From Promethearchaeota archaeon (GTDB lineage: Archaea > Asgardarchaeota > Lokiarchaeia > Sigyniarchaeales > SOKP01), in assembly GCA_019057865.1 (NCBI GenBank), contig JAHLWP010000002.1, positions 159,293 through 223,292 on the forward strand: DNA of 64,000 bases. Direction: 5' to 3'. The first letter of the stretch is position 1; every line of letters begins with the position of its first letter. This document shows, one piece after another, positions 13,174 through 20,584 of this stretch. A program made the position numbers and the translations under genes. The notes beneath the pieces are model-generated. The model did not search any database. It worked only from the letters and a program-made list of their open reading frames with translations, and had not been told where the DNA came from.

Positions 13174-13329
13174 TGGACTCGGGGGGATTTGAACCCCCGA
13201 TTTCCTGTGTCTTCTACAAAAAGTAGAAAAAATTCAGGCTTTTACTTGAACGGACATTTCTTAGAATTTCTTGTTTGTCCGTCGGTCATTTATAAGACCT
13301 GCGCTTTAACCAAACTAAGCAACGAGTCC
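13174..13329 (-). tRNA. tRNA-Ile(UAU) with two introns
   Basis: On the minus strand the acceptor GGACTCG pairs with CGAGTCC, followed by A73 without an encoded CCA. The D arm is GCTT...AAGC and the T arm GGGGG-TTCAAAT-CCCCC. The anticodon stem CAGGT/GCCTG encloses 57 nt, giving loop CTTATA..A, anticodon UAU, with an intron of about 50 nt at 37/38 whose core folds as ACGGACA...TGTCCGT. Between the anticodon and T stems lie 36 nt instead of 5, so a second insert of about 31 nt with hairpin TTCTAC...GTAGAA sits in the variable region. Removing both leaves 75 nt. The loop matches eukaryotic tRNA-Ile(UAU). Confidence 0.8.
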
Positions 13330-13705: not shown

Positions 13706-14386
13706 TCATTTATCTAAACGAGAAGATATTAAATTAAGAAGCCATTTCTTAATTTGAGTTAAATTCTTTAATATTCCAGGCATACGATTTTCAGGATATG
13801 TATGCTCTTGTTCTAATCTTTGAGTTGACTCCATCCATTTATTTAAAGCTAATTGGACCAAATTTGAACCTTCAGCTTCCATAAATAAAGGGATAACAGC
13901 AGCACTTTCTCTTGCATCACCGATGGCAAAATAAACCTTTCGATTGATATCCTTTAACATTACAAGATTAACACACTCATCTATTTTTCGTTCTACTAAA
14001 ATGGCTTTAAGTATTTGTGCTTGAATATCCTTATCTTTATTTTTAAAAATATCTTTTCTTCTTAAAAGAGCTGGCTGAACTTCTGTAATAACTTTTTCAC
14101 CAGTGCTTCCTGTGCTAAAATATTTAGCGATTCTTAAATTATCATTTAAAGCTTGGATAGATGTAAATTTTTTACTATTTGAATATAAAATTGCTTTAGA
14201 ACCACCTGAAGTTTCGCTTGATGATAATTTAATATAAATATTTCTCATAGCAACGGAATTACAGGTATGATATGCTAATTCGAATAACTCTCGTGAACTT
14301 AATGGTTTGTAAGGTATTTCAATATGTTTGAAAAGCCATTGAGAAGAAATAACGTCATTAAATTGAATAAGAAGTCGATTTTCCAT
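13706..14386 (-). CDS. Unknown protein
   Basis: The protein has 226 residues from the ATG that gives MENRLLIQF; a further ATG five codons upstream is possible. It shows no membrane helix, metal motif or P-loop. It begins with a possible strand/helix domain and ends in a helical, Arg/Lys-rich tail (ILKNLTQIKKWLLNLISSRLDK). It is downstream of spcS on the same strand (gap about 130 bases), so it could be cotranscribed with the selenocysteine genes. I do not recognise the family. Confidence 0.6.
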   Translation of the reverse strand: MENRLLIQFNDVISSQWLFKHIEIPYKPLSSRELFELAYHTCNSVAMRNIYIKLSSSETSGGSKAILYSNSKKFTSIQALNDNLRIAKYFSTGSTGEKVITEVQPALLRRKDIFKNKDKDIQAQILKAILVERKIDECVNLVMLKDINRKVYFAIGDARESAAVIPLFMEAEGSNLVQLALNKWMESTQRLEQEHTYPENRMPGILKNLTQIKKWLLNLISSRLDK

Positions 14387-14518
14387 AATTAAAATAAACA
14401 CTCAATTACGAATTTATTCTTATAGTGTTGATTAAAATATAGAACTTCTTATTTTTAACCTTTCCCCCATATGAATATTTCTATTTGAATAGAAATTTAG
14501 ATTTCTGAGTGTAAACAA

Positions 14519-15883
14519 TTATTGTTTTATTTGATTGTAAGCTTTTACAAATCTCTCAACAGCTAATTCGATATCTTTCGTTGTTGCACCAATGGCAGCA
14601 TTCATAACAATATAAGGAGTTGTATAATTTTCACAACATGTTCCAAATGCTGTTTCTTTTGGATTATAGACTCTTGGACCAGTAACCCGTAAATTGTATA
14701 AAGCACCTCCAAGGGCATATAGTTGTTCTTCTTTTAAGTTCTTTAAAGATACTGCTACTGCTATTGGATTATAAATATCAAGAATTCTTTCATTAATATT
14801 ATCTGCAACTATCTTTAATTTTTCTTCTAATATTTTACGATTCTGCTGTTGTTCTTCAATTAATTTTTGATATCCATTAATTCCTAATGAAAGAACTGAA
14901 ATTAAGAAGTTAACAACTGGAGTGGCTGAAGCACGTCCAGCATAAGTTTGACTAATTTCAATTATAATTTCTTTGCTAGGTGATGCTATTATTGCACCTC
15001 CAACCGGAGTTAGAAAGTTTTTGTCAGTTGATTGAATTATCGCATCTACTCTACCAGCATCTATAGCAACTCTAATTAGTTTCATCCATTCAGGGCTTTG
15101 AGCTCCATATGCATTTATAATAATATGTACTAGGTTATTATCTTGCGCAAATTTACTAATTTCTTTGATATTATCAGATTCTCTAGGAGGAAAATAACTA
15201 GTGGTTGAAACAATAGCAAAGCAATCATTATCTAAATTTTTTTTAATGTCTTCAACAGGTATTCTCACAACATCTCTAAAAATTTTTCCTTTAACGATTT
15301 TTGCCCGAAAACCCATTAATTCAATTGATTTTAATAATGATTTATGATCAATTTGTGGCAACAACACCTTTCTCTTATGAAGTAGTTTAGAATCATCCCA
15401 ATCTGGTCTTAATGCTCCTAAACATAAAGATAATGACATTCCAGTACATAAGGGCACTACAATTGCTTCTTTTATATTTGGTAATCCAATATTTTTCAAT
15501 AAGTTTCGCGCTAAATAATTGGTAATTTCATACATTATTGATCCTCCAGGTGCTTTAGGTTGTGGAGCTGTTAAAAATCCACTTCTACCTACACCATGAC
15601 AAAATCCAGCCGAAGTTTTCAAATGAAGTTTTGACGCAATTCTAGCCTCTCTTTCACCTACTCTAGCAGCGTTATCATCCTTGTCTGTATCCATATTTGA
15701 AAGTGTTGCAAGTAAGAATTCTATTTGTTCATCACTCCACGGTTCTTTTGGAACACTTTTCTGTTCAAATAAGTTCTTTATTGGATTTAAGAAATTATTT
15801 AATACAACCTGTCCTCGATTCAACATATTTTGAGGAACAGATGAACTTTTAAAATATTTAATAATCTCGTGAAAATTTACCAT
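14519..15883 (-). CDS. spcS: O-phosphoseryl-tRNA(Sec):selenocysteinyl-tRNA synthase (SepSecS)
   Basis: A PLP enzyme that converts phosphoseryl-tRNA(Sec) to selenocysteinyl-tRNA(Sec) with selenophosphate. From the ATG at 15883 it has 454 residues. An upstream in-frame ATG would run through the tRNA-Sec gene, so it is rejected. Key features are ARVGEREARIAS near residue 73, GFCHGVGRSGFLTAPQPKAPGGS near 93-115 (phosphate/tRNA-end loop) and the PLP lysine in STDKNFLTPVGG (Lys288). The gene lies 26 bases from tRNA-Sec on the same strand. Confidence 0.95.
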   Translation of the reverse strand: MVNFHEIIKYFKSSSVPQNMLNRGQVVLNNFLNPIKNLFEQKSVPKEPWSDEQIEFLLATLSNMDTDKDDNAARVGEREARIASKLHLKTSAGFCHGVGRSGFLTAPQPKAPGGSIMYEITNYLARNLLKNIGLPNIKEAIVVPLCTGMSLSLCLGALRPDWDDSKLLHKRKVLLPQIDHKSLLKSIELMGFRAKIVKGKIFRDVVRIPVEDIKKNLDNDCFAIVSTTSYFPPRESDNIKEISKFAQDNNLVHIIINAYGAQSPEWMKLIRVAIDAGRVDAIIQSTDKNFLTPVGGAIIASPSKEIIIEISQTYAGRASATPVVNFLISVLSLGINGYQKLIEEQQQNRKILEEKLKIVADNINERILDIYNPIAVAVSLKNLKEEQLYALGGALYNLRVTGPRVYNPKETAFGTCCENYTTPYIVMNAAIGATTKDIELAVERFVKAYNQIKQ

Positions 15884-15909: not shown

Positions 15910-16061
15910 TGGCGGCCCCCAGGGGGATATTCTTAAAAAGAGTAAATCTCTTTTCATATCGAACCCCTATCCCTCCGCAGGATAACTGGGTTTGAAGCCC
16001 AGCGTCAAAGACCACTTATCGTCGAGGATCGGAATGACCTCCAATTCGACCGCTAGGGGCC
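15910..16061 (-). tRNA. tRNA-Sec(UCA) with extra inserts in the T-loop and D region
   Basis: On the minus strand a 9-bp acceptor (GGCCCCTAG with CTGGGGGCC) is followed by G73 and encoded CCA. The anticodon arm CTGGG-CTTCAAA-CCCAG gives UCA. A variable arm TATCC...GGATA and a 4-bp T stem GGGG/CCCC complete the 9/4 archaeal-eukaryotic tRNA-Sec form. The gene spans 152 nt where about 95 is normal. The T-loop has 37 nt instead of 7, including hairpin AAAAGAG...CTCTTTT, and the D region has about 50 nt instead of about 21. Both are best explained as introns; exact splice sites are unresolved. spcS follows directly. Confidence 0.92.
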
Positions 16062-19165: not shown

Positions 19166-20584
19166 ATGGAGATTGAAAAGAAAATCCCTGTCCATATCGG
19201 ATTATTTGGTCATATTGACTGTGGCAAAACTGCAATAGCCGAGGTACTAAGTGAGATAATTTCAACCGCTGGTATCGATGCTCATCCACAAAGTAAAGAA
19301 AGAGGAATTACAATTGATTTAGGATTCACTAGTTTTGTCCTTGATAAATATTTAATCACATTAGTAGACGGTCCTGGTCATGCCGATTTAATTAAAATTA
19401 GTGCGTCATCAGTAGAAATTATTGATTGTGCAATTGTGGTTATTGATATAAATAAAGGTCCTCAAGTCCAAACTGGTGAGCATTTAGTTATAATTCAATC
19501 ACTCAAAATTGAAAAAATTATTGTTGTTCTTAATAAAATAGATCTTTTTACTGGAAATGTTAAAAATGAAATTGAAAAAACAAGGAGATTTTTCAATTCT
19601 ACATCATTTGGTTCAGATGTCCCCATTTATGCCGTATCTGCAAGAAGTAAGAGTGGATTTGAAGATTTAAAATTGGGAATCTTAGAAATGATTAGCTCAT
19701 TAGAAATCAAGAGAGCCATTGATGGAAGTATTGTTATTCCAATTGACCATCATTTTCCAATCAAAGGAATGGGAGTAATTTTAACTGGTACAATTGTAAG
19801 AGGAATGTTAAAATTGAATGAAAATCTAAAAATTTTGCCAATAAAATCTTCAGGAAGGGTTAAAAGTATTCAGATTTTTCATCAGAACGTTAATACTGCA
19901 AAAGCAGGTGATCGCATTGGGATTAATATAAAAGGTGTAGACGTTAAAAAAGTATTTAGAGGTTGTTATGCTACGAATAATCCAGAATTATTTGATTTTT
20001 GTGATATTATTGAAGTAGAAGTAAATTGTAATGAATTATTCAAACCTAAAACTAGTTTTGGAACCCAAATCCACATTACGATTGGAATGGTAACGGTTGC
20101 AGGAAATATTTATCCATATTACAAGAAAGAAAGCAAAAAAATTCAAACAACAATTTCAAGTAAAGGAGTGAATTTTGAAGCAATAATAATGTTAAAAAAA
20201 AAGGTTTTAATCAGAAAAGAAAAAACTATAATACTTTTAAGCCGATTAGATTTACCACCTACTACTCTTAGGATAATGGGATCTGCCGAAATATTAAAAC
20301 TACATAAACAACCCCCAGTTTTTTATAAATATAAAACTAAGAAAGGGTATATTAAGAATCCAGAACATCCTGAAGGAATTATATGTACTGGATTAGCGCA
20401 AAGTGGGACTGGTGCGAAAAAGATTGTTGGTAGAAAATTAGAATCCCCTTTTACAAAAGTTTTAAATACCTTTGGTACCAAGGGTGCTGTAATCGTGGGA
20501 ATTGAAAATAAAAATATACCCCTTAAGAAAGGAGGTCCCGTTCTACTAAAAGAGTTGAGAAGTTTTCAACTAAAAAACATTTAA
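19166..20584 (+). CDS. selB: Selenocysteine-specific elongation factor SelB (EFSec)
   Basis: GTPase that brings selenocysteinyl-tRNA(Sec) to UGA codons marked by a SECIS element. In 472 residues, the G domain has GHIDCGKT (G1, about 15-22), RGITIDLGF (G2), DGPGH (G3) and NKID (G4). Domains II and III follow (about 200-365), then a short domain IV (about 370-472). This is the archaeal/eukaryotic form without the bacterial winged-helix C-terminus. Close to tRNA-Sec and spcS, it completes most of a Sec decoding set; PSTK and SelD are not in the window. Confidence 0.93.
   Translation: MEIEKKIPVHIGLFGHIDCGKTAIAEVLSEIISTAGIDAHPQSKERGITIDLGFTSFVLDKYLITLVDGPGHADLIKISASSVEIIDCAIVVIDINKGPQVQTGEHLVIIQSLKIEKIIVVLNKIDLFTGNVKNEIEKTRRFFNSTSFGSDVPIYAVSARSKSGFEDLKLGILEMISSLEIKRAIDGSIVIPIDHHFPIKGMGVILTGTIVRGMLKLNENLKILPIKSSGRVKSIQIFHQNVNTAKAGDRIGINIKGVDVKKVFRGCYATNNPELFDFCDIIEVEVNCNELFKPKTSFGTQIHITIGMVTVAGNIYPYYKKESKKIQTTISSKGVNFEAIIMLKKKVLIRKEKTIILLSRLDLPPTTLRIMGSAEILKLHKQPPVFYKYKTKKGYIKNPEHPEGIICTGLAQSGTGAKKIVGRKLESPFTKVLNTFGTKGAVIVGIENKNIPLKKGGPVLLKELRSFQLKNI

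Follow-up and report, generated by a model that had tools for sequence, protein, structure and literature searches.

Interrupted tRNA-Sec genes described to date

The closest described counterpart of the gene reported here is the tRNA-Sec of Lokiarchaeota, the T-arm of which carries a 31-nt intron (Mariotti et al., 2016, as cited in PMC5330540 and PMC9499178); one of these two accounts calls it the sole archaeal case. In Daphnia pulex, tRNA-Sec has introns at the anticodon loop (PMC5330540). Sun et al. (2021) noted 'unusual insertions and deletions' in the tRNA-Sec of Sifarchaeia and some Lokiarchaeia, and used them to argue against domain-specific features, leaving the inserts uninterpreted and the word intron unused (PMC9723677). 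A 2024 paper on the Asgard selenoproteome does not mention introns. On Asgard tRNA introns more generally, our literature search returned on this point only a study of complete Atabeyarchaeia and Freyarchaeia genomes, in which 92-95% of tRNA genes contain introns, often several (PMC11291895).

Within the window analysed here, the whole 64,000-nt stretch of DNA, we find a tRNA-Sec(UCA) gene of 152 nt on the minus strand (16061-15910, including G73 and an encoded CCA) which is interrupted twice. On sequence comparison, we consider it very probable that this is the sole functional tRNA-Sec of its genome, that of a Lokiarchaeia-type Asgard archaeon, and that it harbors two archaeal-type tRNA introns which would be cut by the tRNA-splicing endonuclease and joined by RtcB, to give an ordinary 9/4 product. 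One intron shares its host tRNA and its arm with the Lokiarchaeota intron of 2016, and is of similar size (30 nt here, 31 nt there); whereas the accounts of that case give one intron and a 7-bp D-stem, the D-stem here is interrupted by a second intron. Daphnia tRNA-Sec is likewise intron-bearing, but is eukaryotic, with a single intron at the anticodon loop (PMC5330540). The bulge-helix-bulge (BHB) introns of Thermoproteales, Atabeyarchaeia and Freyarchaeia are similarly short, occupy D, anticodon and T sites, can number several per gene, and likewise depend on EndA for cleavage and on RtcB for ligation (PMC11291895); the present case differs from them in its host, tRNA-Sec, in having an intron where the 5' strand of the D-stem ends, and in a weak D motif with which other folds compete.

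The original prediction had held tRNA-Sec introns to be hardly described, which is right in substance but passes over the T-arm intron published in 2016 and those of Daphnia. The T-loop site is thus known, whereas neither an intron in the D-stem nor a tRNA-Sec with two introns appears to have been described: we found no literature report of either, though a tRNA-Sec with two introns might be among the genes tabulated in the supplement of PMC11291895. These observations bring to light a second tRNA-Sec intron site among the archaea most closely related to eukaryotes. They also account for insertions hitherto published as structural oddities, as the Lokiarchaeia inserts of Sun et al. (2021) very likely include some of those seen here, which, unlike those authors, we explain as introns (PMC9723677).

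The predicted mature tRNA and the two insertions in its gene

The gene conforms to the predicted 9/4-type tRNA-Sec(UCA) in sequence, size and coordinates, with its strand now assigned as minus. The anticodon UCA lies in a 7-nt loop, CUUCAAA; the discriminator is G73 (the complement of 15913); and the mature form has a 9-bp acceptor, a 4-bp T-stem, a 7-bp D-stem, a 4-nt D-loop (UGGU) and a long variable arm. Removal of both inserts in silico leaves an 89-nt tRNA-Sec (plus G73-CCA) in which 32/32 helix pairs are formed, and folding of this spliced RNA returns the Sec cloverleaf. Exon 1 (16045..16061, minus strand) comprises the 5' acceptor strand GGCCCCUAG, the linker CG and the first six nucleotides of the D-stem, GUCGAA. 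Exon 2 (15958..16015, minus strand) provides the remainder of the D-arm (G UGGU CUUUGAC), the UCA anticodon arm and the variable arm, followed by the 5' T-stem and the UUCGAU of the T-loop. Exon 3 (15910..15927, minus strand) opens with U60, and continues through the 3' T-stem CCCC and the 3' acceptor strand CUGGGGGCC to G73 and the encoded CCA. The exon assignments rest on the complete helix pairing, on alignment to intronless orthologs and on the match to a dedicated tRNA-Sec model, outlined below. The CCA is encoded at 15910-15912 on the minus strand, and also follows G73 in many Asgard relatives; a review states that CCA is not encoded in archaeal tRNA-Sec genes (PMC9499178).

Existing models handle this gene poorly. 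ARAGORN reported no tRNA in the window and missed the tRNA-Sec, while the Rfam tRNA-Sec family (RF01852), with a gathering cut-off of 47 bits, gave it a score of only 34.6; the cut-off is a statistical threshold as opposed to a biological defining feature. The Rfam match begins wrongly at 16030, and both this and its low score are due to the inserts, as intronless relatives exceed the cut-off. As the standard model under-scores twice-interrupted genes in this way, the extent to which Asgard archaea use selenocysteine may have been underestimated in surveys. A model built from the gap-free alignment of tRNA-Sec from 16 intronless relatives recovers the gene over its full length (70.2 bits, E = 1.9e-15) and places two long inserts in it, the first in the D region and the second in the T-loop. 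In the alignment of intronless genes, 98.9% of cells are paired under the 9/4 cloverleaf with its 7-bp D-stem, changes on both sides are seen in 22/32 pairs (14 distinct relatives), and covariation reaches 0.561, compared with 0.210 when shuffled and at most 0.160 when slid. Relative to these genes, the present one carries paired changes in the acceptor (U-A to C-G, G-C to A-U and A-U to G-C) and in the D-stem (G-C to A-U), and these paired substitutions indicate that the mature tRNA-Sec is under selection. Judged on such comparisons, the observation is real and far from chance, in that same-genus orthologs match the layout of the gene minus its inserts. Among the tRNA-Sec matches from a search of 228 genomes of the phylum, many genes of the same genus are 89-nt matches that lack them.

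The T-loop intron (15928..15957, minus strand) is 30 nt long and lies between positions 59 and 60, so that the T-loop reads UUCGAU, 30 nt, U; the 37-nt T-loop with an AAAAGAG/CUCUUUU hairpin had been correctly predicted, as had its identity as an intron, since the insert is missing from intronless orthologs and a BHB-type motif is present. Introns at the same site in relatives measure 29-32 nt. The D-stem intron (16016..16044, minus strand; 29 nt, UUGGAGGUCAUUCCGAUCCUCGACGAUAA) interrupts the 5' strand of the D-stem after its sixth base; its boundary can be moved by up to 2 nt, every choice giving the same mature tRNA. In alignment, it is missing exactly from same-genus orthologs. The original prediction had described a D region of about 50 nt, which is indeed long, at 47 nt (18 + 29), but which reflects a second intron and not an enlarged arm. 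The possibility that the mature tRNA retains an enlarged D-arm was entertained and rejected on comparison with the intronless orthologs.

Splice-site motifs

In the canonical anticodon-loop geometry of archaeal BHB introns, the central helix forms between the exon bases that immediately precede the 5' bulge and the intron bases that precede the 3' bulge. A search for such motifs recovered one of BHB type at each of the two junctions, and at both sites the predicted cuts, placed after the second bulge base, yield exactly the sequence of the intronless relatives. The opposite handedness, with bulges 5' of the central helix, was also considered and offers only G-U pairs, whereas the canonical geometry fits all sites.

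At the T site, intron AGAA pairs with exon UUC(G) to form a helix flanked on either side by a 3-nt bulge (AU^A and UA^U), and cleavage there would recover the known mature sequence. The motif in this gene comprises three pairs (UUC/GAA) and a G-A mismatch, with the fourth position being G-C or G-U in many relatives; across distinct introns, exon UUCG faces CGAA, UGAA, CGGA, AGAA, AGGA or GGAA. At least three of the four central pairs form at the exact junction in 32/32 distinct T-loop introns, compared with 21% after shuffling (maximum 47%), and all four form in half of the 32; offsets other than the exact junction score lower. The ensemble probability of the motif is about 0.08 in this gene, and that of its innermost pairs is 0.7 or more in many relatives.

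At the D site, intron CGAU can pair with exon GUCG, giving a central helix of 4 bp and, at each splice site, a bulge of 3 nt (AA^U and AA^G). Over 22 distinct introns a mean of 3.55 of four pairs form, compared with 1.72 after shuffling (maximum of 2000 shuffles, 2.55), and all four are present in 82% of distinct introns, compared with 2.7% shuffled. As the control offset at -3 reaches 2.77 pairs, this signal is clear but not isolated; the introns compared are also related to one another and do not count as independent cases. Although otherwise variable, these introns share a conserved end, CGAUAA, and one covarying case (GUUG/CAAU) was detected. In one relative with two tRNA-Sec genes, G122, pairing of the intron 3' end with exon GUUA would require the 3' bulge to be enlarged. 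The fold ensemble gave no support to the D motif, which in this gene lies 3.8 kcal/mol above the minimum-energy fold with an ensemble probability near 0, and reaches at most 0.13 in any relative. There is no clear outer exon helix, and the strict hBHBh' form is absent; the D-site motif is at best a relaxed BHB.

These thermodynamic shortcomings, along with the publication of insertions and deletions in Sifarchaeia and some Lokiarchaeia tRNA-Sec as structural oddities (PMC9723677), could be taken to indicate that only the T-loop insert is spliced, and that the 29-nt D insert stays as an expanded D-arm. We give this a small chance, as the 7-bp D-stem would be broken after six bases if the insert were kept, while all 28 of 28 homologous D introns (29-34 nt), whatever their length, leave an identical 18-nt D-arm once removed. 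The junction motif is, moreover, both conserved and covarying, and the insert is precisely missing in sister genomes. Excision of both introns remains the preferred reading.

Similar interruptions are found elsewhere. Anticodon-loop introns in tRNA-Sec of other genera fit the same BHB rule by eye (for example CUUC/GAAG in L060). The tRNA-Sec genes of other Asgard families (L094-L097, L100) have a D-loop intron after UGG, with a GGGU/GCCC motif by eye, and some of these also have anticodon, T-loop or possibly variable-arm introns. In the genome under study, intron-size spans occur in about half of the tRNA genes detected. A second twice-interrupted tRNA gene lies in the window at 13174-13329 on the minus strand (RF00005, 45.4 bits), its anticodon loop being enlarged by about 50 nt and its variable region by about 30 nt; its loop, CUUAUAA, suggests the anticodon UAU (isoleucine), which would be unusual for an archaeon.

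Genomic context, splicing machinery and intron turnover

The draft genome (4.26 Mb, 87 contigs) is 99.67% complete and 5.15% contaminated. The original prediction would have been undone by an intact second tRNA-Sec elsewhere; none was found in this genome, as the other RF01852 matches lack a UCA anticodon. That the gene is a decaying pseudogene, its intact counterpart being unassembled or unrecognized, seems barely credible to us. An assembly in 87 contigs could miss a copy, and G122 does have two copies, but the high completeness, the full helix pairing with compensatory changes, and the conservation of the position upstream of SepSecS in all members of the genus speak against decay, as does the closest relative, G113, which has both introns, with one substitution in each.

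The gene is embedded in a selenocysteine cluster. SepSecS (O-phosphoseryl-tRNA(Sec) selenium transferase; 14519..15883, minus strand; 454 aa; TIGR03531, 488 bits) starts 26 nt downstream of the encoded CCA, and the order tRNA-Sec then SepSecS is kept in 19/19 genomes of the genus. Just downstream of SepSecS lies a Sel_Asgard 'putative selenocysteine system protein' (13706..14401, minus strand; NF045535.1, 220.5 bits, above cut-off), consistent with such a cluster in the window, and the selenocysteine-specific elongation factor SelB is encoded at 19166..20584 on the plus strand (TIGR00475, 246.6 bits, above cut-off). The genome also encodes a PSTK-like protein (148 bits, below the family cut-off of 290.5). 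Selenoprotein candidates include four genes of FlpD type, each containing two in-frame TGAs, and two SelD genes with a single in-frame TGA apiece (contexts FG-U-SCKL and FG-U-NCKL). Since only one tRNA-Sec was found, the SelD and FlpD genes would be readable only if that tRNA is spliced. In another genome, G094, the SepSecS gene itself (L170, G094:C197:20696-22024) has one in-frame TGA.

The components needed for splicing are present, namely two EndA paralogs and one RtcB. The first EndA paralog (200 aa) is alpha-like, with its best match to the solved tRNA-splicing endonuclease subunit 3p1z (E = 3e-35) and the catalytic Tyr, His and Lys kept; the second (207 aa) is beta-like, and in its alignment to 1a79 another residue stands in place of the catalytic His. 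This pairing points to an (alpha-beta)2 enzyme, a type of endonuclease which tolerates relaxed motifs. We infer a sequence of events in which the precursor would be cut at the BHB-type motifs of both introns by the endonuclease, probably an (alpha-beta)2 heterotetramer of the two paralogs, and the exons ligated by RtcB to form the archaeal 9/4 tRNA-Sec with its 7-bp D-stem, which would then pass from SerRS to PSTK and SepSecS, and on to SelB. Before splicing, the D intron keeps the two halves of the D-stem apart, and the CGAU at the 3' end of the intron could replace the true partner strand in pairing with exon GUCG; the D-arm recognized by PSTK and the D/T elbow would therefore be correct only after splicing, on which charging would thus depend.

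To this extent the proposal that splicing must precede formation of Sec-tRNA stands as a likely consequence of the gene's structure, but a special coupling of splicing to selenoprotein synthesis found no support, given the intron-size spans in other tRNA genes and the many close relatives that are intronless. The stronger form of this idea, that the introns constitute a regulatory checkpoint at which splicing is tuned to selenium or selenoprotein demand, has a very slim chance of being right. It draws on the predicted need for splicing to obtain a usable tRNA-Sec, with the D intron blocking the D-arm that PSTK would read, and on the location of the gene directly upstream of SepSecS. Against it, introns have been repeatedly gained or lost, 19 family members with Sec machinery are intronless, and interruptions of this size are commonplace among the tRNA genes of the genome.

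Intron content varies within the family. In 19 genomes the tRNA is intronless, while other members have a single intron at the D, T or anticodon site, or two introns, combining T with either D or anticodon; the spliced forms of complete members are all 89 nt with 31 or 32 pairs, although in the anticodon-intron class the length was fixed by script, so that only the pairing counts as evidence. When intron states are placed on a SepSecS phylogeny covering 62 family members, at least 11 changes of state are required for the D intron, at least 14 for the T intron and at least three for the anticodon intron. Supported sister pairs that differ by both D and T include G112/G128, G125/G118 and G136/G138, among others. 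Among independent pairs differing in D, the direction of the T difference agrees with that of D in about 6 of 9 and opposes it in 0.2 (median p 0.03), with the reverse test of co-change giving 0.06. Such patchy introns at a fixed gene order make this locus a good natural system in which to study the turnover of archaeal tRNA introns.

Exon sequence changes along with intron content. U occupies D-stem position 14 in 15/19 intronless genes, compared with C in all genes with both D and T introns, and among complete genes a T-stem A-U pair (GGAG/CUCC) occurs only in this latter class (14/21), while the incomplete G119 gene has the A-U pair without a T intron. Both allele replacement and splice-motif selection could explain this co-change. 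A more elaborate possibility, which we regard as tentative and rather unlikely, is that in Lokiarchaeia the locus repeatedly switches between whole alleles (intronless, D, D and T, or anticodon and T) swapped between genera, as opposed to shedding single introns in turn, and that the D intron acts as a fold switch gating recognition by PSTK. Identical 89-nt exons with different introns are found in D-and-T genes of several genera (L048, L052, L057, L065, L067, L068 and L077). In G122, the two tRNA-Sec genes (L055, L056) have different D introns, and the second of these genes precedes a truncated copy of SepSecS (89 aa matched).
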